DNA from: Micromonosporaceae bacterium
GTDB lineage: Bacteria > Actinomycetota > Actinomycetes > Mycobacteriales > Micromonosporaceae
DNA length: 64,000 bases
Assembly (NCBI GenBank): GCA_009377645.1
Contig: WHTQ01000008.1
Span: forward strand, 1-64,000
Direction of reading: 5' to 3'
Within the stretch, counting starts at the first letter, position 1, and each line of letters begins with the position of its first letter. The position numbers and the translations under genes were made by a program. The notes beneath the pieces were generated by a model. The model searched no databases, was not told the origin of the DNA, and saw only the letters and a program-made list of their open reading frames with translations. Positions 29,727 through 58,044 of this stretch are shown here, one piece after another.

Positions 29727-29800
29727 GCCGCCTTAGCTCAGTCGGTCAGAGCGGTGCTCTCGTAAAGCACAGGTCGTCGGTTCGATTCCGACAGGCGGCT
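29727..29800 (+). tRNA. tRNA-Thr (CGT)
   Basis: Acceptor arms GCCGCCT and AGGCGGC pair over 7 bp, D-arm GCTC/GAGC, anticodon stem GTGCT/AGCAC with loop CTCGTAA giving anticodon CGT (reads ACG), T-arm GTCGG-TTCGATT-CCGAC. CCA is not encoded. A TACACT -10 box lies at about 29706. Its 3' half is the attachment site of the island that follows. Confidence 0.95.
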
Positions 29801-29802
29801 CC
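29759..29802 (+). other. attL: island attachment site in tRNA-Thr
   Basis: The 44 nt from the anticodon loop to just past the tRNA 3' end recur at 37656-37698 with a single G missing. Together with an integrase remnant directly inside, this marks the left end of an integrated element of 7.9 kb. Confidence 0.9.
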
Positions 29803-29808
29803 CAGCTC

Positions 29809-29840
29809 AGAGCCTTGATCCACGGATCAAGGCTCTTTCT
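29809..29840 (+). terminator. Rho-independent terminator after tRNA-Thr
   Basis: AGAGCCTTGATC (29809-29820) and GATCAAGGCTCT (29825-29836) pair perfectly over 12 bp around loop cacg, followed by TTTCT. It lies on the island side of attL, so it was probably brought by the element. Confidence 0.85.
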
Positions 29841-29880
29841 GTGGAGCTACATGTGGAGCCAGCGGCGTATCCTGGCTCCA

Positions 29881-30300
29881 TGCCGACCACCTCGACCCGC
29901 CGGCGGCGGACCCGCGGGGAGATCGAAACCCTCCCTAGTGGATCGCTGCGGGTTCGGGTGTACGCCGGGATCGATCCACTGTCGAAGAAGCGGCACTACC
30001 TCACCGCCATCGTGCCAGCCGGGCCGGCGGCCGCGAAGGAGGCGGAGAAGGCCCGGACCCGGCTGCTGGCCGAGGTCGACGAGCGCCGCAACCCGCGTAC
30101 CAAGGCGACCGTGAACCAGCTCCTCGACCGATACCTGGAAGTCCTTGGATGCGCGTGAGACGACCGTCTACGGCTACCAGAGCAACATCCGCAACCACAT
30201 CCGTCCGCTGCTGGGGCAGCTGCCGCTGCCCCGGCTCGACAGCGAGGTGCTGGACTCGTTCTACGCCACCCTGCGCCGGTGTCGGGCGCACTGCGACGGC
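29881..30300 (+). pseudogene. Truncated, frameshifted tyrosine-type integrase
   Basis: Frame 1 (29881-30158) gives PTTSTRRRRTRGEIETLPSG, SLRVRVYAGIDPLSKKRHYL and TVNQLLDRYLEVL, typical of the N-terminal arm-binding domain of phage-type integrases. A frameshift near 30148 then continues as ETTVYGYQSNIRNHIRPLLG...LDSFYATLRRCR (core-binding domain). The catalytic domain with R-H-R-Y is absent. The island is therefore no longer able to excise on its own. Confidence 0.88.
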
Positions 30301-30567
30301 CGAGGCCGGCGGCCGAGTGGCACGTGTGCCGGCCGCTCGGCGAGATGTCCGATGAGGTCTGGCAGGCCTCGGTCGACGTGCTGGTGCAGGCCGGCGACCT
30401 CGAGTCCCCGCAGCCGCTACCTGGAGCGGGAGCACGGCATCAGGGTCCTCGGTCGGCACGGTTACTGACCGCTCGGGACGCCATGTCTCATCCAGCGGAA
30501 CAACCGGCTGGGTGTGACGGGTCGTCATAGGCTACTTTGCGCTGACGCAACCTCGTGGAGGCAGCAG
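30301..30567. other. Remnant sequence and promoter region before the island ABC operon
   Basis: Directly after the integrase remnant, a short stretch reads AEWHVCRPLGEMSDEVWQAS in one frame, possibly more integrase-related debris; no intact gene is supported. The last part (about 30520-30560, cataggctactttgcg) is less GC-rich and probably holds the promoter of the following transporter. Confidence 0.4.
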
Positions 30568-31671
30568 ATGAAGTCTCGGAACACCTATCGGTTCATCGGT
30601 AGCGCGGTCTTGGCCACTGGAATGCTGCTTACCGCCTGTGGCGGGTCGCCGACGGCGACCGATCCCGAGCAGGGTGACTCCGGAGAAGAAGCTGGCGGCG
30701 CGTACCAGGAGCTGCTGGGACTGTCCCAAGACCAGCTGGTGGCGCGCGCCCAGGAAGAGGGCGAGCTCAACTTCTACACGGCGATGTCGAGTGACCTGGC
30801 AGTCCTGGTGGCCGACGCCTTCGAGGCGGAGTACGAGATCGGGGTCGCCGTCTACCGGTCGACGTCGGATGCTCTCGCCAGTCGCATCGCGCAGGAGCAG
30901 GCGGCGAACTACCCGGGCAACGACGTCGTCGAGACCGGCGGCCTGGAGTTGGCGGCGCTCAACGATGAGGGGCTCCTGCAGCCGCACGACGGACTCGCCG
31001 GCCGGGAGGCGATGCCGGAGGAAGCCAGGTCCGACGGTTGGACCGCCGACCGCTACATCGCCTTCCTGCCCAACTGGAACACGAATCTCGTCGCGGCAAG
31101 CGAGCAGCCCACGTCCTGGGAGGATCTGGCGGATCCGCGGTGGGACGGCAGGCTCTCGCTGGAGCAGAACGACTACGACTGGTACGCCACGCTTCATACC
31201 TGGTTCGTGGAGTCCGGCAAGACCGAGGCCGAGGCGGACCAGATCTTCGAGGAGATGGCGCGGGATGCGAAGGTCACCAACGGGCACAGCACGCAGGCAA
31301 ACCTCCTCACCGCCGGTCAGTTCGCCGTATCGGCGTCGGCCTTCCTGCATCTGACCGAGCCGCGGATCGCCGACGGCGAGCCGGTTGCGGTCGAGCCGCT
31401 GGTCGAGCCGGTGATCGTCCGCCCGAACGGCGTCGCGGCCATGCGGAGCGCGCAAAACCCGGCAGCGGCCCTGCTCTTCGTGAGCTGGCTTCTCGCGGAC
31501 GGGCAGGACGTCCTTGCGGAAGGCGGCGTGACGCCTGCCCTGCCCGGCAAGAGCAGCGTGCTCACGGGCGTCGAGGTGCTCAATGTAGACCTGGAGATGC
31601 TCCAGACCGAGGGCCAGGAGTGGGCCGGGCGCTACGACCGGCTGCTGACGGTCGGCGAGGTGGTCGAGTAG
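30568..31671 (+). CDS. Lipoprotein substrate-binding protein of a Fe(III)-type ABC importer
   Basis: 367 residues. Signal peptide with lipobox LLTAC and lipidated Cys24, so it sits on the outer face of the membrane. The mature part has the periplasmic-binding-protein type II pattern of Fe(III)/AfuA-like proteins (EGELNFYTAMSSDLAVLVADAF, LASRIAQEQAANYPGNDVV). Such proteins carry iron but also organic acids and phosphonates; the ligand is unknown. GGAGG 6 nt before ATG 30568 supports the start. First gene of an SBP-permease-ATPase-cupin-EutA run. Confidence 0.88.
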   Translation: MKSRNTYRFIGSAVLATGMLLTACGGSPTATDPEQGDSGEEAGGAYQELLGLSQDQLVARAQEEGELNFYTAMSSDLAVLVADAFEAEYEIGVAVYRSTSDALASRIAQEQAANYPGNDVVETGGLELAALNDEGLLQPHDGLAGREAMPEEARSDGWTADRYIAFLPNWNTNLVAASEQPTSWEDLADPRWDGRLSLEQNDYDWYATLHTWFVESGKTEAEADQIFEEMARDAKVTNGHSTQANLLTAGQFAVSASAFLHLTEPRIADGEPVAVEPLVEPVIVRPNGVAAMRSAQNPAAALLFVSWLLADGQDVLAEGGVTPALPGKSSVLTGVEVLNVDLEMLQTEGQEWAGRYDRLLTVGEVVE

Positions 31672-31705
31672 TCCTGCGCGCAGCCAGGGGCGGAGGGTGA
31701 CGCTG

Positions 31706-33388
31706 ATGCGGACCACGGTCCTTCGGCCCGGGCTGCTCGTGGCACTGCCGGTGGGCCTCATCATCGGGTACTTCGCCCTGGTCCCGCTCGTCTACCTGGT
31801 GTGGGGCACGTTCTTCGACGCGCACGGCGTCACGCTGGAGGGCTTCATCCGGGCCTACCGGCATCCCGCCACGAAGCAGATGATGGCGAACTCGCTGATC
31901 TATGCCCTGGGCTCCGGCGCGCTGGCGCTCCTGCTGGGGACCGCGCTGGCCTACCTGCACACCCGCACGGACGTGCCCTTCAAGGGCCTGTTCTTCGCGG
32001 CCGCCTTGGTGCCGCTGATCATCCCAGCGATCCTCTACGCGATTGCGTGGATCTTCCTGGCCAGCCCGGACATCGGCATCCTCAACCTGGCCCTGCAGCC
32101 GGTCTTCGGCCGGGACGTGCTCGACGTCTTCTCCATGCCGGGGATGATCTGGGTGGAGGGCCTGAACCTGTCCCCGCTGGTGTTCCTGCTCATGGTGGTC
32201 GCCTTCCGGGGAATGGACCCCTCGCTCGAGGAGTCCGCGCTCATGAGCGGCGCCAGCCGGCAGGTCATCCTACGCCGGATCACGCTTCCGCTCGCCCGGC
32301 CGGCCATCGTCGCTGCGCTGCTCATCATGGTGGTGCGCGGCCTGGAGAGCTTCGAGGTGCCGGCCCTGCTGGGGCTACAGAACGGCATCCACGTCTTCAC
32401 GAGCCGGATCTACCTCGCGCTCCGGGACTATCCGCCGGACCTCGCCGTTGGCGGCGCGCTGTCGACCGGGTTGCTTGTCATCGCCGTGATCGGGGTCCTG
32501 CTCAGCTCCCGGTTCGGGCGGTCGGAGAGGCAGCGGGCATATCAGACGATCACGGGTAAGGGCTTCCAGCCGCGTCGGGTGCAGCTCGGGCGGGCCCGGT
32601 CGCTGTTCGGCGTGGCGGTCGTCGTCTACTTCGCGATCACCGTCGCCCTCCCGTTGGCGGTTCTGCTATGGACCTCCTTCCTCGCGTACTATCAGGTGCC
32701 GTCGGCGGATGCGCTGGCCAGCCTGACCCTCGACAACTACCGGGAGCTCCTCGAGCAGGACGCGGCCCTGAACGCGCTCAAGAACTCATCCATCCTCGGC
32801 GCCGGGACGGCAACGCTGATCGTAGCGGTCATGGCGGCCGCGGCCTGGGTGGTGGTGCGCACCAACCTGCCCGGCCGCCATCTTCTCGACCAGCTGTCGT
32901 TCCTACCGTTGGTGGTGCCGGGCCTGGTCCTGGGTCTGGCTGTCGCGTTCGTCTACCTGCGCAGCCCGCTCCCCATCTACGGGACGCTGTGGATCCTCCT
33001 GATCGCGTACTTCATCCGCGCCATGCCCTACGGCATGCGGTACGCGCTGGCCTCCATCCACCAGATCTCGGGCGAGCTCGAGGAGAGCGCACAGATGTCG
33101 GGAGCGAGCTGGCTGCAGACGTTCCGCCGGATCCTTGTCCCGCTCATGGCACCGGGGCTCATCGCGGCGTGGGTGTACGTGTTCATCACGTCGTTCCGGG
33201 AGCTGTCGAGCTCCATCCTGCTGTACAACCCGGGAAATGAGGTTCTGTCCATCTTGATCTGGGACCAGTACGAGAACGGCGACTTCACGGTCCTCGCCGC
33301 GCTCGGCGTGGTCATGCTCCTGCTGACCGTCGCCCTGGTGATTCTCGCGCACCGGCTCACCAGCAAGTCCGGCCTCGGCCGGGTCTGA
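31706..33388 (+). CDS. ABC importer double permease (FbpB-type)
   Basis: 560-residue protein with two fused six-helix permease halves. Each half carries the cytoplasmic EAA loop that contacts the ATPase: EESALMSGASRQVILRRITLPL in the first and EESAQMSGASWLQTFRRILVPL in the second. ATG 31706 is preferred over GTG 31697 because GGAGG at about 31691 is 10 nt upstream of it but only 1-2 nt from the GTG. It works with the lipoprotein before it and the ATPase after it. Confidence 0.88.
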   Translation: MRTTVLRPGLLVALPVGLIIGYFALVPLVYLVWGTFFDAHGVTLEGFIRAYRHPATKQMMANSLIYALGSGALALLLGTALAYLHTRTDVPFKGLFFAAALVPLIIPAILYAIAWIFLASPDIGILNLALQPVFGRDVLDVFSMPGMIWVEGLNLSPLVFLLMVVAFRGMDPSLEESALMSGASRQVILRRITLPLARPAIVAALLIMVVRGLESFEVPALLGLQNGIHVFTSRIYLALRDYPPDLAVGGALSTGLLVIAVIGVLLSSRFGRSERQRAYQTITGKGFQPRRVQLGRARSLFGVAVVVYFAITVALPLAVLLWTSFLAYYQVPSADALASLTLDNYRELLEQDAALNALKNSSILGAGTATLIVAVMAAAAWVVVRTNLPGRHLLDQLSFLPLVVPGLVLGLAVAFVYLRSPLPIYGTLWILLIAYFIRAMPYGMRYALASIHQISGELEESAQMSGASWLQTFRRILVPLMAPGLIAAWVYVFITSFRELSSSILLYNPGNEVLSILIWDQYENGDFTVLAALGVVMLLLTVALVILAHRLTSKSGLGRV

Positions 33389-33404: not shown

Positions 33405-34544
33405 ATGCTCACGGTCGACCGGCTGGTCAAGACCTTCCCGGGCGGTACCAGGAAGGGAGACGGCGCAGCTGTCCGGGCGGTCGACAACGTGGCGTTCGAG
33501 GTGGCCGAAGGGCAGCTCTTCACGCTGCTCGGCCCCTCCGGGTGCGGCAAGACGACGACGTTGCGGTTGTTGGCTGGGCTGGAACAGCCGGACTCCGGGC
33601 TGGTCAAGGTGGGCGACCGCACGATGTTCTCCCGCGGCATGGGGGATCCGGGAGGGATCAGCGTCCCCGCCAACCGCCGCGGATTCGGGATGGTGTTCCA
33701 GTCGTACGCCATCTGGCCGCACATGTCGGTCTTCGACAACGCCGCGTTCCCGCTGCAGGTTCGCCGGCGGTCGAAGCGGCTTACTCGGCGGGCGATCCGC
33801 GAGACGGTGCTGGGCATCCTGGAGACCCTGCAGCTCTCCCACCTGGCCGACCGACCGGCGACGAAACTGTCGGGGGGCCAGCAGCAGCGCCTCGCGCTGG
33901 CCCGGGCGATCGCGTTGGAGCCGCCGCTCATGCTGCTGGACGAGCCGCTGTCCAATCTCGATGCCAAACTGCGGGAGTCGCTGCGGTTCGAGCTCAAGCG
34001 GCTCCAGCAGGAGCTCGGGATCACGAGCGTGTATGTCACGCACGACCAGACGGAGGCGCTGGCGATGTCGTCGGTCGTGGCGGTGATGCAGGACGGCAAG
34101 ATCATGCAGTGCGGCACCCCGCTCGAGGTGTACCGGAAACCGTCCGGCAGCTTCGTCGCGGACTTCATCGGCACGTCGACCTTCCTGGAGGGAATCGTCG
34201 CGTCGCAGGACGAGCGCATCGTGTGCGTGCGAACCCCGGAGGGGGAACTGCGGGTCGAGACCGACCACCAGCAACAGGTCCCGGCGGGCACCAGCGCCAT
34301 CGTCTCGATCCGGCCAGAAGTGGTGCACCTGGCACCGGAGAGCTCAGCTGAGCCGATCGCGAACGAGTGGCGCGGCACGGTCACGACCCGGGCATTCCTC
34401 GGCGCGGTAGTCGAGTACCTGGTGCAGGTGGGAGACACGACCATCCGGGCACAGGGCCCGGGTGGCGCCATGCTGGAGCCGGGAACCCCGGTATACCTGC
34501 AGATGAGCCCGTCGGAGCTCACCATGGTGCCGGTGTCGGGGTGA
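33405..34544 (+). CDS. ABC importer ATPase (FbpC/PotA-type)
   Basis: 379 residues. Walker A GPSGCGKT at 43-50, signature LSGGQQQ at 155-161, Walker B LMLLDE at 175-180, H-loop in YVTHDQTEA, and a C-terminal TOBE-like region (ISIRPEVVHL). Powers uptake through the preceding permease. GGAAGGAG lies 6 nt before ATG 33405. The 16-bp gap to the permease shows one operon. Confidence 0.92.
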   Translation: MLTVDRLVKTFPGGTRKGDGAAVRAVDNVAFEVAEGQLFTLLGPSGCGKTTTLRLLAGLEQPDSGLVKVGDRTMFSRGMGDPGGISVPANRRGFGMVFQSYAIWPHMSVFDNAAFPLQVRRRSKRLTRRAIRETVLGILETLQLSHLADRPATKLSGGQQQRLALARAIALEPPLMLLDEPLSNLDAKLRESLRFELKRLQQELGITSVYVTHDQTEALAMSSVVAVMQDGKIMQCGTPLEVYRKPSGSFVADFIGTSTFLEGIVASQDERIVCVRTPEGELRVETDHQQQVPAGTSAIVSIRPEVVHLAPESSAEPIANEWRGTVTTRAFLGAVVEYLVQVGDTTIRAQGPGGAMLEPGTPVYLQMSPSELTMVPVSG

Positions 34545-34649: not shown

Positions 34650-35789
34650 ATGACCGACCAGGCAGTAGGGCAGACGAGCTGGCAGCGACCGGCCACCCCG
34701 TACGAGGAGTTCTGCGCTGTCCAGGGCGTTCCGATCTACCGCGAGCTGCTGGGGGTGCACGACGTGCGGGAGCTGGAGCTCGGCCCCTGGGACCGGCTGG
34801 GCGGCCGCGGCGCGATCATCGACCTCGAGGGCACGGGCGGCTATCTGGGCATGTACCTGGTCGAGGTGCCCCCGGGGGGTTCGCTGGCGCCCGAGCGGCA
34901 TCTCTACGAGGAGGTCTGCTACGTCATCGAGGGAAGGGGCACGACCGAGGTCTGGGCCGACGGCGGCAACCGGCAGGTCTTCGAGTGGGGGAAGGACAGC
35001 GTCTTCTCACCGCCCATGAACACCTGGCACCGCTTCATCAACGCGACCAATGCACCGGCGCTGATCCTGGTGGGCTCGAACGCGCCGCCGATCATGGAGC
35101 TGTTCCGGGACGAGGAGTTCATCTTCGGCACCCCGCACCACTTCAAGCACCGCTACGACGCCGCTGACAGCTACTTCGACGCCTGGGACGAGCTCGCGAC
35201 CGATGACCTGTCCCGGCGCGCGCTGCACAGTGGGGCGCTCGTCCCGGACGCCGCCAACTGCTACGTCCCCCCGGACGGCCAGCGCGGATCGGGACACCGG
35301 CACTTCTTCTTGTACATGTCCGGGAACTACTTCCGCGGTTTCATCGCGGAGTACCCGGTGGGGAAGTACTCAAAGACGCACGCGCACGACGCTGGCCCGG
35401 TGCTGGTCTGCCTGGCCGGCCAGGGCTACACCCTGACCTGGCCCAAGACGGCCGGCACCACGCCCTGGCGGGACGGCAAGGAGCACCTGGTCCGGCGCCA
35501 GGACTACCAGACCGGCGGCGTGGTGAGTGCTGCGCCCGGCGGGGAGTGGTTCCACGCCCATTTCGGCGTCAGCGGTGACCGGTTCCGGGTGATGGCGCTG
35601 CTCGGGGGCTACCCGAAACGTACCCAGGGTCCCCCCGGTTCCACAGTGGTCCACGTGAACCGGGACATCAAGCAGGGTGGAAACACGATCGAGTACCGCG
35701 ACGAGGATCCGATGATCCGTAGCCTGTTCGAGCAGGCACTGGCCGAGGTCGGTGGCACGATCGACATGCCCGCCGAGCTCTACCAGTAG
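34650..35789 (+). CDS. Two-domain cupin (bicupin) protein
   Basis: 379 residues with two cupin folds. First cupin: His84 and Glu87/88 in PERHLYEEVCYVIEG with a later His127 (NTWHRF). Second cupin: H244-A-H246 (KTHAHDAGPVLVCLAGQG) and H302-A-H304 (WFHAHFGV). These would bind a metal, as in gentisate-like dioxygenases, decarboxylases or isomerases; the reaction cannot be told. It is part of the island operon, 105 bp after the ATPase gene and 17 bp before the EutA-like gene. No signal peptide. Confidence 0.8.
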   Translation: MTDQAVGQTSWQRPATPYEEFCAVQGVPIYRELLGVHDVRELELGPWDRLGGRGAIIDLEGTGGYLGMYLVEVPPGGSLAPERHLYEEVCYVIEGRGTTEVWADGGNRQVFEWGKDSVFSPPMNTWHRFINATNAPALILVGSNAPPIMELFRDEEFIFGTPHHFKHRYDAADSYFDAWDELATDDLSRRALHSGALVPDAANCYVPPDGQRGSGHRHFFLYMSGNYFRGFIAEYPVGKYSKTHAHDAGPVLVCLAGQGYTLTWPKTAGTTPWRDGKEHLVRRQDYQTGGVVSAAPGGEWFHAHFGVSGDRFRVMALLGGYPKRTQGPPGSTVVHVNRDIKQGGNTIEYRDEDPMIRSLFEQALAEVGGTIDMPAELYQ

Positions 35790-35806
35790 TCGGCCGGGAT
35801 CGAGAG

Positions 35807-37297
35807 ATGCACCAAGGCCCACACCACCCGCACCACCCGGAGGAGCACCCGCACGACGGTGCGGGCGCCGATCGGGACGACAGCTCGCTGGTGCTGACCA
35901 CGGTGGGCGTGGACATCGGCTCGTCGACCACCCATTTCCTGGTCTCGCGTCTGCGGATGACGCTCCACGGTGCGCGGTACGTGCCCGCCGGTGCCGAACT
36001 TCTGCACGAGTCGCCGGTGCTGTTCACCCCGTACGCGGGCGAGGAGCTGATCGACGTGGACCGGCTGCGGGACTTCATCACGCAGCAGTACGCGGAGGCC
36101 GGCATCGGTCGGCAGGACGTGGACAGCGGCGCGGTCCTGCTTACCGGCCTCGCCGCGCAGCGGCAGAACGCCCGCCTGGTCGGCGAGATCTTCGCCGATG
36201 AAGCGGGACGGTTCGTCGCCTGTAGCGCCGGTCATCGAATGGAGGCAGAGCTCGGAGTACGCGGGTCGGGCGCGCTCGCGCTCTCCCGGCAGCTGGCGGC
36301 CAGCCTGATCCACATCGACATCGGTGGCGGCACGACGAAGATTTCCCACTGTCGAGCCGGGCGGATCGAGAGCACGCTCGCCCTGGCGGTGGGCGCCCGG
36401 CTCATCCTCCGCGACCGCGACGGTCTGGTCCGGCGGGTCGAGCCGGGCGCGAAGCCGATGCTCGACGCGGCCGGGGTGACCGTCCGGGTCGGTCAACGGA
36501 TGGAGCCGGAGCAGGTCGCCGCCGTCTGCGGCTATCAGGCGGACCGGGTCCTGGACGTGGTGGCGGGGCGAGTCTCGACCGAGGCGCTGGACGCCGTCCT
36601 GGTGACCGACCGGGCGCCGATGCCCGACCAGGTCGACGCCGTGACCTTCTCCGGTGGTGTGTCGGAGTACCTGTACGGACGCGAGTCACAGGACTTCGGT
36701 GACCTCGGTCCCCCGCTGGCCGAAGCGTTCGCCGACCGGTTCGCCGGCTTCCCGGTCCGGGAGGTCAGCGGCGGCATTCGCGCGACCGTCCTCGGGGCTT
36801 CGCGGTTCACGGTGCAGGTCAGCAGCCAGACGATCTTCGTCGATCCGCTCGACACCCTGCCGGTCCGCAACGTGCCGGCCGTGGTCCCGGAGCTACCCAC
36901 GAACCAGGAGAGGTTCAGCAGCGAGGAGGTGCGGGACGCCGTGGCGCGCGCCCTCGACCGGCAGGCTCAGGCCGGTGCGGACCTGCCGCCGGCCGTCGCC
37001 ATCGGTATCGCCTGGGAAGGCGACGCCAGCCACGCGCGGCTGGACGCGCTCGCGCGCGGCATCCTCGCCGCCGTGCGCCAGTCCCCATGGCGGGCGGCGC
37101 CGTTGCTCCTGGTGGTGGACCACGACATCGCCCGGCTGCTCGGACTGCAGCTGCGCGAGAGCGCCCGGACAGCGGGGCCGGTCGTCGCGATCGACGGGGT
37201 CGGGCTCCGGCCGCTCGACTTCGTCGACATCGGGGAGGTCGTCCTCGGTGCGGGCGCCACTCTCGTCGTCGTCAAGTCCTTGGTGTTCTCGGGTTAG
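35807..37297 (+). CDS. EutA-like ethanolamine ammonia-lyase reactivase homologue
   Basis: 496-residue ASKHA-fold ATPase. VDIGSSTTHFLVSRL near 35-49, QDVDSGAVLLTGLAAQRQNAR, HIDIGGGTTKISHCRAGRIE near 169, and TFSGGVSEYL match EutA in order and spacing. EutA reactivates adenosylcobalamin-dependent ethanolamine ammonia-lyase, but no EutB or EutC gene is in the window. The first 16 residues are very His-rich (H at 2, 6, 7, 9, 10, 14, 16), unlike enterobacterial EutA. Its target enzyme may be outside the window, lost, or a different enzyme. It follows the bicupin by 17 bp. Confidence 0.85.
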   Translation: MHQGPHHPHHPEEHPHDGAGADRDDSSLVLTTVGVDIGSSTTHFLVSRLRMTLHGARYVPAGAELLHESPVLFTPYAGEELIDVDRLRDFITQQYAEAGIGRQDVDSGAVLLTGLAAQRQNARLVGEIFADEAGRFVACSAGHRMEAELGVRGSGALALSRQLAASLIHIDIGGGTTKISHCRAGRIESTLALAVGARLILRDRDGLVRRVEPGAKPMLDAAGVTVRVGQRMEPEQVAAVCGYQADRVLDVVAGRVSTEALDAVLVTDRAPMPDQVDAVTFSGGVSEYLYGRESQDFGDLGPPLAEAFADRFAGFPVREVSGGIRATVLGASRFTVQVSSQTIFVDPLDTLPVRNVPAVVPELPTNQERFSSEEVRDAVARALDRQAQAGADLPPAVAIGIAWEGDASHARLDALARGILAAVRQSPWRAAPLLLVVDHDIARLLGLQLRESARTAGPVVAIDGVGLRPLDFVDIGEVVLGAGATLVVVKSLVFSG

Positions 37298-37328
37298 CGC
37301 TTGTCAATGTGAAGTGGAGGGGGAGACA

Positions 37329-37489
37329 TTGGACAGCCTGCGGGAGTGGATCGACCAGGTCGAGGCGATGGGCGAGCTGGTGCGCGTGGCCGAGCCGGTG
37401 GACTGGGACCAGGAAGCGGGTGCGATCAGCTACCTTGCCGGCAAGACCGCCGGCAACCCGGCCATCCTCTTCGAGCGCATCAAGGGCAG
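37329..37489 (+). pseudogene. UbiD-family decarboxylase, N-terminal stub
   Basis: TTG at 37329 opens a frame reading DSLREWIDQVEAMGELVRVA, EPVDWDQEAGAISYLAGKTA and NPAILFERIKG, the N-terminus of UbiD-like prenylated-FMN decarboxylases. It breaks off after about 54 residues where IS481-type transposase sequence begins; a complete UbiD has near 450-500 residues. GGAGGGGGAG lies 4-10 nt before the TTG. The stub shows that the island operon once continued with a UbiD-type enzyme. Confidence 0.8.
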
Positions 37490-37650
37490 ATCCGCTCGAA
37501 GAGCACCTTCGCCGGGCGGGGCTTGGTGAACCGGCCGGTGAACTGCTTCCCATTGTCGGTTAACACTTCCGACGGGACGCCGTAGCGGTTCATCGCGGTG
37601 GTGAACGCTGTAGTAACGTGCCTGGTAGACAGCGGGGCGCCGGTCATACC
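37490..37650 (-). mobile_element. IS481-type transposase fragment
   Basis: On the minus strand, MTGAPLSTRHVTTAFTTAMN, then RYGVPSEVLTDNGKQFTGRF and KPRPAKVLFERI, match the DDE core of IS481-family transposases (second Asp in LTDNGKQFTG). About 54 residues remain, with no start, no catalytic end and no visible terminal inverted repeats. It interrupts the UbiD gene and lies next to attR, so insertion and deletion probably eroded this end of the island. Confidence 0.8.
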
Positions 37651-37655
37651 ATCGC

Positions 37656-37698
37656 CTCGTAAAGCACAGGTCGTCGTTCGATTCCGACAGGCGGCTCC
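37656..37698 (+). other. attR: duplicated 3' half of tRNA-Thr
   Basis: CTCGTAAAGCACAGGTCGTC, GTTCGATTCC and GACAGGCGGCTCC repeat attL at 29759-29802, lacking one G in the T-stem. It cannot form a whole tRNA. It marks the right boundary of the island. Confidence 0.9.
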
Positions 37699-37728
37699 GA
37701 GCCCAGCGCATGGACAGGGAGGCAGTCG

Positions 37729-38277
37729 ATGGGTGCCATACACGTGCACGAGTTCATGAGCCTCGACGGTGTGATCGACGCGCCCACGTGGACGTTCGAC
37801 TACGGCTTCGACCCCAAGATGGGGGAGGTCCTCGGCGCGGTCACGGGACGTTGCCGGGGCATCCTGCTCGGGCGCACGACCTACGAGATGTTCGAGCCGG
37901 CCTGGTCGACCCGGACCGTGGAGGACGATCCAGGTGCGCCGTTCTTCAACGACACCACCAAGTACGTCGTGTCCGGGACGCTCACGAATGCAACCTGGCG
38001 GAACTCAAAGGTCATCGGGGCGTACGACCCGGACGTGATCCGCAGCCTGCCGGACGAGATCGACGGTGACCTCTACGTCAGCGGCAGCATCACGCTGGTC
38101 CGAGCGATGCTCGCGGACCGCCTGGTCGACGAGCTGCATCTGTTCGTCTACCCGCTTACCCGCGGGTCCGGTCCGCGGCTGTTCCCCGAGGAAGCCGCGC
38201 CCAGCAAACTGTCGCTTGCGGCGCATGAGTCGTACGAGAACGGTGTGCTCTACCTGAACTACCGACCGCAGGCGTGA
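37729..38277 (+). CDS. Dihydrofolate reductase/RibD C-terminal-like reductase
   Basis: 182-residue protein of the DHFR-like RibD_C family: N-terminal HVHEFMSLDGVIDAPTWTFD, nucleotide-binding region GILLGRTTYEMFEPAW, YVVSGTLTNATW, YVSGSITLVRAML and DELHLFVYPLTRGSGPRLF. These NADPH-dependent reductases are often of unknown substrate and are distinct from FolA. GGGAGG lies 6 nt before ATG 37729. It begins 30 bp after attR and so is likely core genome. Confidence 0.9.
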   Translation: MGAIHVHEFMSLDGVIDAPTWTFDYGFDPKMGEVLGAVTGRCRGILLGRTTYEMFEPAWSTRTVEDDPGAPFFNDTTKYVVSGTLTNATWRNSKVIGAYDPDVIRSLPDEIDGDLYVSGSITLVRAMLADRLVDELHLFVYPLTRGSGPRLFPEEAAPSKLSLAAHESYENGVLYLNYRPQA

Positions 38278-54031: not shown

Positions 54032-54046
54032 TATGATACAATGTAC
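54032..54046 (+). promoter_or_regulatory. -10 box and GntR-type half-site before the second ABC importer
   Basis: TATGAT (54032-54037) is a near-perfect -10 hexamer in an AT-rich region about 50 nt before GTG 54087. It overlaps ATACAAT (54036-54042), half of the ATTGTATACAAT-like sites used by FCD-type GntR regulators. The same heptamer lies in the other promoter region of the cluster (62873-62883). Confidence 0.5.
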
Positions 54047-54086
54047 GAGATCTGATCATGAAATTGCTGTCGAGAGGAGCCCTCCG

Positions 54087-55133
54087 GTGCGGGTGGCGAG
54101 AACGGTGGTGCCGGCGGTCCTGTCCGTTGTCCTTGTGGCAGCTGGGGGAGCGTGCGGTGGAGGCGATGACGATGACGCGTCCGACCAGGTAGCGGCTCCG
54201 GGGATCACCGAGGAGCTGATCGCCGCGGCCGAGCAGGAGGGTCAGGTGGTGTTTACGGGGTCGATCGCCGAAGCTGAGTTCACCAGCCTCAAGGAGGCCT
54301 TTCAGGCAAAGTACCCGGGCATCGACGTCCAGTTCACGCCGGGCGGTGCCGCCGCGTCGCTGGAGCGCTTCGGCGCCGAGGTCCAGCGCGACTCGATCCG
54401 AACCGATGTCTTCCAGTTCGGCGACTACGTCGCCCTGCAGACGTTCGCGGACCAGGGTGGCCTCGTCGAGCTCGACGCTGAGGCGATTCCCGCAATGGCG
54501 GAGTACGACCCGTCCCGGGTCAGCCAGTACTGGGTGACCTGGGGTACGCAGCCGATCATGCTTGCCTACCACAGCGAACTCCTCTCGGACCCGCCGCAGG
54601 ACTGGGCGGACGCGCTGGACCCCAGGTTCACGGGCAAGATCGGGTACACGGCGCCGTCGGTCTCCATCGCGTTGGTCGAGATGTGGCTCATCCTGGAGCG
54701 GGAGCTAGGCAGCGACGTCATCGACCGCTTCCTCCAGCTCGACCCGCGCATCTACTCGGACACGAGCGTCGCCGCGGCCGCGCTCGCCGCGGGCGAGGTC
54801 GAGGTGGTCTTCGGCGCGGTGCCGAGCCGGATCGTTGCGCTCAACGCGGACGGCGCACCGATCGAACTGATCACTACCTCCTTCGCCAACGGTCCGAACC
54901 GCCCCATCGTCATCGCCGACGGGCCGCACCCCAACGCCGCCAGGCTCTTCACCGACTTCCTCCTCAGCCGGGAGGGTCAGCAGGCGATCTACGGGAGCGG
55001 CGGTGGCTCCTCGTTCATCGAGGGCGGGGTCGACGGCATGATGGATCTTCCCGCGGACTTCCGCATCCTGGACCAGCAGAACGAGGTCGAGCCGGAGCGG
55101 CAGCGGATCATCTCTCAGCTCGAGGCGGGCTGA
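54087..55133 (+). CDS. Substrate-binding protein of second Fe(III)-type ABC importer
   Basis: 348 residues with N-terminal hydrophobic signal (VVPAVLSVVLVAAGGAC) and a likely lipidated Cys23, although GGAC is a weak lipobox. The mature part matches the type II AfuA-like binding fold (EGQVVFTGSIAEAEFTSLKE, NAARLFTDFLLSREGQQAIY). Ligand unknown. GTG 54087 has GGAG 7 nt upstream. It leads an operon with permease and ATPase and sits in a catabolic cluster, so an organic anion is a plausible ligand. Confidence 0.87.
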   Translation: MRVARTVVPAVLSVVLVAAGGACGGGDDDDASDQVAAPGITEELIAAAEQEGQVVFTGSIAEAEFTSLKEAFQAKYPGIDVQFTPGGAAASLERFGAEVQRDSIRTDVFQFGDYVALQTFADQGGLVELDAEAIPAMAEYDPSRVSQYWVTWGTQPIMLAYHSELLSDPPQDWADALDPRFTGKIGYTAPSVSIALVEMWLILERELGSDVIDRFLQLDPRIYSDTSVAAAALAAGEVEVVFGAVPSRIVALNADGAPIELITTSFANGPNRPIVIADGPHPNAARLFTDFLLSREGQQAIYGSGGGSSFIEGGVDGMMDLPADFRILDQQNEVEPERQRIISQLEAG

Positions 55134-55176
55134 TCAAGTCCCCCTGGTCCCGTCCGACCAGCCAACTGGAGCGACC

Positions 55177-56952
55177 GTGACGCAGCTGCTGACGCGTCCC
55201 ACCTCCCGCCCGAGGTATGTGGCGCGCGGCATCCTCGGCTGGCACTGGGGGATGCTGGCGCTGGCCCTGGTCCTGGCCGTGCTCATCGTTGGTCCGCTCG
55301 GCTTCGTGACCGGCCGGGCGGTGCTCGGCGGGGAGCTCACGACGAAGGTGCAGGAGTTCGTCGACTTCATGAGCCAGCCGGCAACGTTGCGGGCGCTGCG
55401 GAACACGTTCCTGATCGCCGTGCCGGCCACGCTGATCGCCTGCGCCGGCGGTGTGGCGCTCGGCTGGCTGCTCGCCCGGACGGACATCCCAGGACGGCGG
55501 CTGCTCAACTCCATGCCGTTGATCCCCATTCTCATCCCTCGGGTGAGTGCGGCGATCGGGTGGGTATTCCTGCTCAGTCCGCGCCAGGGCATCCTCAACG
55601 TCTTCTATCGCGACGTCTTCGGGTCGGACGCGGAGACGGGCCCGTTCAACGCTCACAGCTTCCTGGTCATCATCTTCGTCATGGGCATCAACCTGGTGCC
55701 GTACGCGTACGCGCTGATGTACCCGAGCTTTACCCAGATGAACTCCGAGCTGGAGGAGGCCGGGCTCGCGTCGGGAGCCTCGGAGCTGCGGGTCGCGTGG
55801 CGGGTGACCCTCCCGGCAATGCGGCCGGCACTGCTCGGCTCGCTGAGCCTGTGCTTCATGCTTGCCATCGCCCAGTTCTCGATCCCGTACATCCTCGGCA
55901 GTCCCGAACGCATCACCGTGCTCACCACCGAGCTGTTCGGTCTGCTCACGACGTTTCCGGCGAACTACGACGCGGTGGCCTACCTGGGTATCGTCCTGGG
56001 CCTGTTCGCGGTGATCCTGCTGTACGGTCACCGCCGGCTGACTGCGCTGCGCAGCTTCGTCACGGTGACCGGCAAGGGGCACAGCGACCGGCTCGTCCGC
56101 CTCCGGCGCTGGAAGCCCGCGGCGCTCGCCTTCGTGTGGCTCTACGCCGGCCTCACCGTGATCCTGCCCGTGGGCGCGCTGGTTGTCGCCTCGCTGCTGA
56201 GCTTCTGGGGCGCCGACTACCGTCTCGACGAGATGGGCCTGGACTGGTACCGCTCGCTGTTCGACCACGCCTGGGCGATGCCCGCGCTCGGCAACAGCCT
56301 CCGGCTGGCGCTGGTCGGCTCGCTGTGCTGCATCGTGCTGGCCGCACTCGCCTCCTGGTACGGCGTGCGCCGGAAGGGCCGGCTGAACTCGGTGCTGCAG
56401 GGCTTGGCGGAGCTGCCGATCGGCATCCCGTCGAGTGTGTTCGGCATCGGCTTCCTGTTCGCGTTCATCGCGTTGTGGGCGGACGGTCTCAACACGTCGT
56501 TCCCGTTGCTGGTGATGTACAGCGTGCTGTTCCTGCCGTTCGCGATGAGGTCTGTGACCTCGGCCCTGCACCAGGTCTCCCCGGAGCTGGAGGAGGCGGC
56601 GTATGTTTCTGGCGCGTCCAGGTTCGGGGCGTTCCGCCGGGTGACCCTGCCGTTGCTGAAGAACGGGATGTTCTACGGGTGGTTGCTCGTGCTGGCCATC
56701 CTGTTCCGCGAACTGGAGGCGACCGTGTTCCTGGTTACGCCCGGTACGCCGGTCTTCGCGAGTGCGTTGCTCGACATGTGGGGCCTTGCCCGCTGGCCAC
56801 AGGCTGCCGCGTACTCGGTGCTGGTTCTGCTGCTCACGCTGGTGCTGCTGGGCGCCATGTCCGGGCTGCTCGGCATCGGCAAGCGGGCCGGTAGCGGCCG
56901 GCGCCGACCGTTCCCCAGCAACCGGCCAGGATCGGTCCATGGAGGTGTCTAG
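55177..56952 (+). CDS. Double permease of second ABC importer
   Basis: 591-residue FbpB-type permease with two halves; EAA loops EEAGLASGASELRVAWRVTLPA and EEAAYVSGASRFGAFRRVTLPL contact the ATPase. Around twelve hydrophobic segments. Clearly the same family as the island permease at 31706 but well diverged in sequence. GTG start 55177; its stop directly abuts the ATPase start. Confidence 0.88.
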   Translation: MTQLLTRPTSRPRYVARGILGWHWGMLALALVLAVLIVGPLGFVTGRAVLGGELTTKVQEFVDFMSQPATLRALRNTFLIAVPATLIACAGGVALGWLLARTDIPGRRLLNSMPLIPILIPRVSAAIGWVFLLSPRQGILNVFYRDVFGSDAETGPFNAHSFLVIIFVMGINLVPYAYALMYPSFTQMNSELEEAGLASGASELRVAWRVTLPAMRPALLGSLSLCFMLAIAQFSIPYILGSPERITVLTTELFGLLTTFPANYDAVAYLGIVLGLFAVILLYGHRRLTALRSFVTVTGKGHSDRLVRLRRWKPAALAFVWLYAGLTVILPVGALVVASLLSFWGADYRLDEMGLDWYRSLFDHAWAMPALGNSLRLALVGSLCCIVLAALASWYGVRRKGRLNSVLQGLAELPIGIPSSVFGIGFLFAFIALWADGLNTSFPLLVMYSVLFLPFAMRSVTSALHQVSPELEEAAYVSGASRFGAFRRVTLPLLKNGMFYGWLLVLAILFRELEATVFLVTPGTPVFASALLDMWGLARWPQAAAYSVLVLLLTLVLLGAMSGLLGIGKRAGSGRRRPFPSNRPGSVHGGV

Positions 56953-58044
56953 TTGTCTGCGTCTGTGACCATCGAGCAACTGGTGAAGAGGTATGGTGAC
57001 GCCCGGGACGGCGTCACCGCGCTCGACGACGTATCGTTGACGATGTCCAGCGGCGAGCTTACCGTGCTGTTGGGGCCGAGCGGCTGCGGCAAGACCACGC
57101 TGCTCCGCAGCGTCGGTGGCCTGGTGACGCCGGACAGCGGCTCCATCCACATCGGGGACCAGCCGGTCTTCTCGTCCGCGGACCGGATCGACGTGGCGAC
57201 CCGCAAGCGCCACATCGGAATGGTGTTCCAGTCCTACGCCTTGTGGCCCAACCTGTCGGTCTTCGACAACGTGGCCTTCCCGCTGAAGGAGCAGCGGACC
57301 AGCCGGGCCGCGATCCGGACCCGGGTCGCCGACGGCCTGGAGCTGGTCGGCTGCGCGCACCTGAGCCGGCGCTTTCCGCACGAGCTGAGCGGCGGCCAGC
57401 AGCAGCGGGTCGCCCTCGCGCGCGCCCTGGCAGCCGAGCCGCGGCTGCTGCTGTTGGACGAACCACTGTCCAACCTCGATGCCGGCCTCCGGGTGCGGAT
57501 GCGCGGCGAGATCCGGCGAGTGCAGCAACGGACGGAGCAGACGATGATCCACGTGACGCATGACCAGGGCGAGGCGCTTGCGCTCGCCGACCGCCTGGTC
57601 GTGATGAGGTCGGGACAGGTGATCCAGATGGGTACCCCTCGGGAGGTGTACGAGGACCCGAGGACTGCTTTCGTCGCGGACTTCCTCGGCTCGGCTAACC
57701 TGGTCGAGGTGCGCCGGCACCGGCCGGACGGGTCGGTGGAGACCCCGCTCGGGCCGATGACGGCGGCCCGCGACCATCACCAGGGCTCGGACGGCGCCGC
57801 CTACGTCGCGATCCGCCAGGAGGACGTGCACCTAGGGGAGGGACCGTGCGGCCGGGGCTGTGCCAACGAGTACGAGCTGTCGCTGCAGGCGGTGGAGTAT
57901 CTGGGCGATCACCAGCTCGCCACGCTTGCCGGCGGCGGGGAAGCCCGGCTGATCGCTCGATGCCCTGCTGGCGAACGGCTACGGCCGGGGATAGGCTACC
58001 GGGTGTGCCTGCCAGCCGAGCGCTGCTCCGTTGTGCCGAGCTGA
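56953..58044 (+). CDS. ATPase of second ABC importer
   Basis: 363 residues. Walker A GPSGCGKT at 41-48, signature LSGGQQQ at 145-151, Walker B LLLLDE near 170, H-loop HVTHDQGEA. TOBE-like C-terminal part. TTG 56953 is used because GGAGGTG lies 5 nt upstream and it abuts the permease stop; GTG 56965 is an alternative. Confidence 0.9.
   Translation: MSASVTIEQLVKRYGDARDGVTALDDVSLTMSSGELTVLLGPSGCGKTTLLRSVGGLVTPDSGSIHIGDQPVFSSADRIDVATRKRHIGMVFQSYALWPNLSVFDNVAFPLKEQRTSRAAIRTRVADGLELVGCAHLSRRFPHELSGGQQQRVALARALAAEPRLLLLDEPLSNLDAGLRVRMRGEIRRVQQRTEQTMIHVTHDQGEALALADRLVVMRSGQVIQMGTPREVYEDPRTAFVADFLGSANLVEVRRHRPDGSVETPLGPMTAARDHHQGSDGAAYVAIRQEDVHLGEGPCGRGCANEYELSLQAVEYLGDHQLATLAGGGEARLIARCPAGERLRPGIGYRVCLPAERCSVVPS

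Follow-up and report, generated by a model that had tools for sequence, protein, structure and literature searches.

A bicupin and an EutA-like actin-fold ATPase are encoded together as a widespread, conserved two-gene unit of many environmental bacteria. The unit was recognized in a stretch of 64 000 nucleotides from a Micromonosporaceae bacterium (contig WHTQ01000008.1, positions 1 to 64 000; referred to here as the window). No description of it was found in the open-access literature searched, which contained no relevant joint mention of EutA or an ethanolamine ammonia-lyase (EAL) reactivase with UbiD or a cupin and no joint mention of NikR with a cupin and a Rieske protein. The EutA-like protein is tentatively proposed, with somewhat less than even confidence, to be an ATP-driven cofactor-maintenance factor that would load metal into, or remove it from, the co-encoded bicupin and, in some genomes, UbiD.

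The features of the locus are listed in Table 1. The bicupin gene starts 105 bp after the importer genes, and the intervals from bicupin to EutA-like gene and from EutA-like gene to UbiD stub are 17 and 31 bp, respectively. The cluster between 30.5 and 37.5 kb resembles what is left of an island that had integrated at a tRNA-Thr gene. The tRNA gene and, directly after it, a decayed reading frame similar to the N-terminal part of a tyrosine integrase lie at window positions 29727–30158. A second importer of similar general type (binding protein, fused permease and ATPase), followed by a GntR-like regulator, lies at positions 54033–58044, distant from the pair.

Table 1. Features of the bicupin/EutA-like locus in the window.
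Feature	Position	Strand	Start codon	Domain match
ABC importer substrate-binding lipoprotein, SBP_bac_8 type	30514..31671	+		Pfam, 42 bits
Fused two-domain ABC permease	31697..33388	+		BPD_transp_1; PhnU2-like below cut-off
ABC importer ATPase	33405..34544	+		ABC_tran and TOBE_2
Bicupin	34650..35789	+	ATG	Pfam Cupin_2, 50 bits
EutA-like actin-fold ATPase, 496 aa	35807..37297	+	ATG	PF06277, 333.6 bits
UbiD decarboxylase N-terminal stub, 54 aa, truncated	37329..37490	+	TTG	UbiD_N, 49 bits (cut-off 24.3)
Integrase/transposase (rve) remnant at the UbiD break	37480..37749	-		PF00665, 17.7 bits (below cut-off)

The pair, which the sequence-only reading had taken as a unit, was found to be conserved well outside the window. 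A search that used seven aligned EutA-like proteins of the pair type as query yielded at least 494 relatives. A bicupin of the window type was present in 70 of the 86 loci studied (the neighbourhoods of the low-G+C loci L093, L117 and L121 were read by homology only). A bicupin lay within 600 bp of 67 of 106 EutA-like copies, on the same strand in 63 cases and upstream, as in the window, in 55; some of the 106 copies were distant from any detected bicupin. Among 395 genomes of the window's class the EutA-like gene occurred in five and a full-length bicupin (E < 1e-130) in exactly those five, a coincidence with a chance probability of about 1e-11; PF06277-type matches in G042 and G213, both with EutB adjacent, were set apart from the five, and a weak partial bicupin match in G041 (90 bits) was set aside. 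All 48 EutA-like-carrying genomes searched contained the bicupin, and the copy numbers of the two genes were correlated (rho 0.81), a correlation that holds across distant phyla. The 48 genomes carry 428 bicupins versus 185 EutA-like genes, and this excess is what would be expected if a single accessory factor served several enzymes. For 35 adjacent pairs, the distance matrices of the two proteins agreed (r = 0.91, 0 of 2000 permutations), an agreement to which the shared ancestry of the genomes contributes.

The window EutA-like protein is homologous to EutA over its full length and is encoded by the only PF06277 gene of its genome. It passes the gathering score of that family (27 bits) and falls short of the NCBIfam EutA equivalog cut-off (best 264.9 bits, cut-off 598). 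A phylogeny had been suggested as a check, and it separated the EutA-like proteins from EutBC-linked EutA: in an LG+C20 tree, 65 EutA-like proteins, including that of the window (on a long branch of 1.98), were split by a 100/100 branch from 11 true EutA proteins, each with EutB adjacent at its locus. The phosphate loops DIGxx and DIGGGT are common to both groups, and fixed differences occur near the nucleotide loops (S39 and K178 in EutA-like proteins versus T and N in true EutA). D36, G38, D171, GGGT 173–176, G283 and G284 are invariant in the EutA-like proteins. No Cys is kept in 70% or more of the 65 EutA-like sequences, and no His or Cys of the core resembles a metal ligand, the sole conserved His (43) lying beside the phosphate-1 loop. 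The His-rich N-terminus remarked upon earlier is real in the window protein (seven His in 25 residues, with residues 1–23 disordered in the AF2 model) but is not general, as only 17 of 88 homologues have four or more His there.

The bicupin had been described as having two metal sites. This is unsupported because the N-terminal site is not canonical: position 82 is mostly Glu or Gln, H84 is kept in 38 of 43 homologues, and position 127 is His or Tyr, with His in 25 of 43. The C-terminal site H244xH246 ... H302xH304 is conserved (first HxH in 40 of 43 homologues, second in 43 of 43), and by its ligand residues the bicupin has a single conserved metal site, that of the C-terminal cupin. The closest solved folds to its AF2 model (pLDDT 90) are salicylate/gentisate 1,2-dioxygenases (PDB entries 2phd and 3bu7; Z of 20–21), followed by oxalate decarboxylase/MncA (Z of 18–19), and the bicupin is probably an oxygenase or a decarboxylase. 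These nearest folds include enzymes that we take to be Fe or Mn proteins. The NCBIfam gentisate dioxygenase equivalog gave only 16.6 bits for the window bicupin (cut-off 442). The Streptomyces cupin dioxygenase QueD, a quercetinase, accepts either Ni or Co for activity, with a 3His/1Glu or a 4His site (PMC4416304), and by analogy the four-His site of the bicupin would be compatible with activity with Ni or Co.

UbiD was found to be a recurrent but minority partner of the EutA-like gene. The start of a UbiD gene seen by the sequence-only reading is real and UbiD does recur, but it is not a regular third member: it lay inside 11 of 86 loci and directly adjoined the EutA-like gene in about six. 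The stub shares 83% protein and 84% DNA identity with the N-terminal part of an intact UbiD encoded on contig C153 of the same genome. The DNA match covers 162 bp and ends at about position 37487, where the rve-like remnant on the opposite strand takes over; UbiD is therefore truncated in the window. The catalytic domain PF01977 was not found on contig C210, the window holding the UbiD_N stub only, and intact UbiD genes are kept on other contigs of the genome. The window's order of cupin, EutA-like gene and UbiD recurs in L069, whereas UbiD, the EutA-like gene and a NicO-type permease follow one another in L072, L076, L091, L104 and L116, with no bicupin adjacent. UbiD as an obligatory third gene was rejected, as its family domain was not found in six of the 48 EutA-like genomes and adjacency is only occasional.

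Several further UbiD clusters were observed. In L104 (8430–15605) and L116 (5446–12739) an operon encodes UbiD, the EutA-like protein, the NicO permease, in part a monocupin, and RidA-like, ornithine-cyclodeaminase-like and dihydroxyphthalate-decarboxylase-like proteins. A second UbiD cluster of the window's genome (L136; G000:C153:50001-70000) contains two UbiD genes, one of them the 84% DNA match of the window stub, together with a UbiX-like gene, TctA, a TTT binding protein, a TPP-enzyme pair, Rieske oxygenase alpha and beta subunits and a C–C hydrolase. The uncultured genomes G395, G404, G417, G427 and G435 have 35–50 or more UbiD genes, and the first three of these also have 24–33 window-family bicupins each, an unusual catabolic expansion.

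The importer had been read as an Fe(III)-type transporter belonging to the unit. It is an ABC importer, but its best NCBIfam models are not ferric: most of them describe putative 2-aminoethylphosphonate importers and score below cut-off, far below it in the case of the substrate-binding protein. Its membership of the unit was borne out in two further genomes of that class, in which a window-type importer stands beside the pair (L017 and L018) at about 40–63% identity (permease 58–63%, ATPase 52–57%, with homologues of the substrate-binding protein also present). Recurrent neighbours of the pair are a LigXa-type Rieske oxygenase, a Rieske ferredoxin, a ferredoxin reductase, a PanB-like enzyme, a class II aldolase and a LigB-type dioxygenase, and the recurrent importers are of the TTT, Tau or Fbp type. 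A further recurrent neighbour with a substrate-binding-protein fold matches phosphonate/NMT1-type binding proteins in Pfam and presumably resembles 4,5-dihydroxyphthalate decarboxylase. Together, these neighbours and importers point to a pathway for the uptake-coupled oxidative breakdown of a carboxylated compound, which would probably be aromatic.

A link to nickel/cobalt uptake, which was not foreseen by the sequence-only reading, was found in part of the family. In the 48 genomes NicO was within 2 kb of an EutA-like gene in 11 of 53 cases (0.22 expected), HupE in three of 17 and NikR in three of 15. Among the matches listed, NicO lay within 5 kb of 15 of 142 EutA-like genes versus none of 63 lone bicupins and one of 91 lone UbiDs, 'lone' denoting genes lying away from EutA-like genes (Fisher p = 1e-4, without correction for relatedness). 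NixA and NikR directly follow the EutA-like gene in Phyllobacterium; in L118–L120, NicO, NikR and a CobW-family GTPase follow a His-rich EutA-like gene inside a Rieske-oxygenase cluster; CbiMNQO, named by eye from the sequence, is present at the pair locus in L018, and NikR stands beside the EutA-like gene in L010. Per EutA-like copy the linkage is a minority feature: in the scan set a Ni/Co permease lay within 4 kb of only 10 of 88 copies, and the window locus is without it, NicO, HupE and NikR not being found in the window's genome. The His-rich tail did not track with the permease in the same set (one of 17 His-rich copies versus nine of 71 others). The NicO-linked Burkholderiales-type loci L088, L114, L115 and L118–L120 include His-rich copies, which is no proof of correlation because this set was selected. 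It may also be that the NicO permeases transport not nickel but cobalt destined for B12.

A role for the EutA-like ATPase in reactivating or loading a cofactor enzyme, as the sequence-only reading proposed, is kept as the best reading; the link between the genes is observed, and its biochemistry would be as follows. EutA uses ATP to release damaged cobalamin from ethanolamine ammonia-lyase (PMC5821096). Extended in the simplest way, this would have the EutA-like ATPase open and reload the metal site of the bicupin and, at times, that of UbiD. By analogy with EutA, it would attach to the enzyme in its apo or inactivated form; binding or hydrolysis of ATP would enable it to open the metal site of the enzyme, which would then take up a fresh divalent metal, Ni or Co being favoured. 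The His-rich N-terminal tail, where present, would hold metal. In carbon monoxide dehydrogenase (CODH) the insertion of Ni is driven by an ATPase, and some operons encode the His-rich Ni-binding helper CooJ (PMC6006190). It is conceivable, if doubtful, that the EutA-like proteins are metal-cofactor maturation factors of a new class, in which an actin-fold ATPase of the EutA lineage inserts or renews Ni (or Co) in bicupin oxygenases and some UbiDs. The nickel-insertion NTPases known to us (HypB, UreG and CooC) are P-loop proteins, and an actin-fold ATPase would thus be a new fold for this task. Against metal maintenance stand the small number of copies near a Ni/Co permease, the lack of metal-ligand-like His or Cys in the EutA-like core, the presence of Fe or Mn enzymes among the nearest folds of the bicupin and the location of some EutA-like copies away from any detected bicupin.

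The strongest rival, which we consider unlikely, is a catalytic role for the EutA-like protein as an ASKHA kinase, which would phosphorylate the imported substrate or an intermediate for cleavage or decarboxylation by the bicupin or UbiD, in the manner of the ATP-using subunits of acetone/acetophenone carboxylases. The AF2 model (pLDDT 89) has the fold and motifs of an actin-like (ASKHA) ATPase, which is related to kinase and phosphatase families; its structural neighbours are PPX/GppA, FtsA and PilM (Z of 13–17), and it also resembles HgdC-type activators, AnmK and other sugar kinases. Pfam gave additional weak Hydantoinase_A and BcrAD_BadFG matches for the window protein, and a search by sequence for solved structures of EutA-like relatives gave only weak MreB and PPX/GppA matches. 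A kinase would also suit a gene that stands among catabolic enzymes with an importer of their own. However, the bicupin excess is easier to reconcile with a shared factor than with a dedicated step, a single EutA-like family is found with partners as different as bicupin and UbiD, and a kinase leaves the Ni/Co linkage unexplained.

Metal maintenance was also weighed against a role closer to that of EutA, in which the EutA-like protein would still reactivate some other B12 enzyme and the Ni/Co permeases would supply cobalt. The full-length homology to EutA (333 bits) is consistent with such a role, as is the ability of CbiMNQO and NicO to carry cobalt. It is improbable, since EutB was not found in 43 of the 48 EutA-like genomes, nor the diol-dehydratase large subunit in 45, nor either of them in 41, the window's genome being among the 43 and the 41; the EutA-like proteins fall outside true EutA in the tree and differ from it at positions 39 and 178, and the NikR genes adjoining in L010 and L118–L120 point to nickel. 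EutB was found nowhere in the window's genome, in keeping with the description of its EutA-like gene as an orphan without EutBC, and EutBC neither always accompanies EutA-like genes elsewhere in their genomes nor goes with a clustering in the tree. That a B12 enzyme follows the pair, a point raised for checking, was likewise not supported. The idea that the protein acts as EutA on an ethanolamine ammonia-lyase or diol dehydratase encoded elsewhere was rejected for most genomes, both enzymes being mostly absent, and the window-type protein is not EutA in the functional sense. Genomic hitch-hiking, in which two catabolic genes travel together on islands with no direct functional coupling, would suit the position of the window cluster between a tRNA-Thr gene adjoined by a decayed integrase on one side and a remnant integrase on the other, as well as neighbourhoods rich in variable transporters and oxygenases, but is hard to reconcile with the strict co-occurrence in 395 genomes, the copy-number correlation across distant phyla and the matching distances of the two proteins, and is given little credence.

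Among known systems, EutA shares full-length homology, the actin-like ATPase fold and the phosphate loops with the EutA-like protein, which differs in having a bicupin or UbiD as partner and no EutBC. HgdC/BcrAD_BadFG, the activator of 2-hydroxyacyl-CoA dehydratase, is likewise an actin-fold ATPase (Z of about 13–14 to PDB entries 4ehu and 1hux), but the EutA-like protein is without the conserved Cys for a [4Fe–4S] cluster and is partnered with neither a CoA dehydratase nor a CoA reductase. HypB, UreG and CooC with their His-rich helpers resemble it as NTPases near Ni uptake genes and in the His-rich tail of part of the EutA-like family, and the proposed metal delivery would be shared by analogy; they are of the G3E or MinD class. 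The salicylate/gentisate 1,2-dioxygenases have the bicupin fold and a setting in aromatic catabolism in common with the window bicupin, but are only about 12% identical to it, and its conserved metal site is in the C-terminal cupin. QueD is a Ni/Co-active cupin dioxygenase that tolerates a 4His site, but is a monocupin with 3His/1Glu, and the available part of its report mentions no dedicated ATPase (PMC4416304).

EutA-like proteins can be annotated as 'ethanolamine ammonia-lyase reactivating factor EutA', as in Phyllobacterium, although most carriers have no detectable EutB; their place is instead in another, widespread unit, which includes a bicupin. Should the metal-maintenance reading be true, cupin oxygenases would gain a dedicated ATP-driven metal chaperone, the idea of a 'reactivase' would reach beyond B12, and the presence of Ni uptake and NikR genes inside oxygenase clusters would be explained. 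The unit also flags uncharacterized catabolic machinery, bicupins and UbiDs numbering in the tens in some uncultured genomes.
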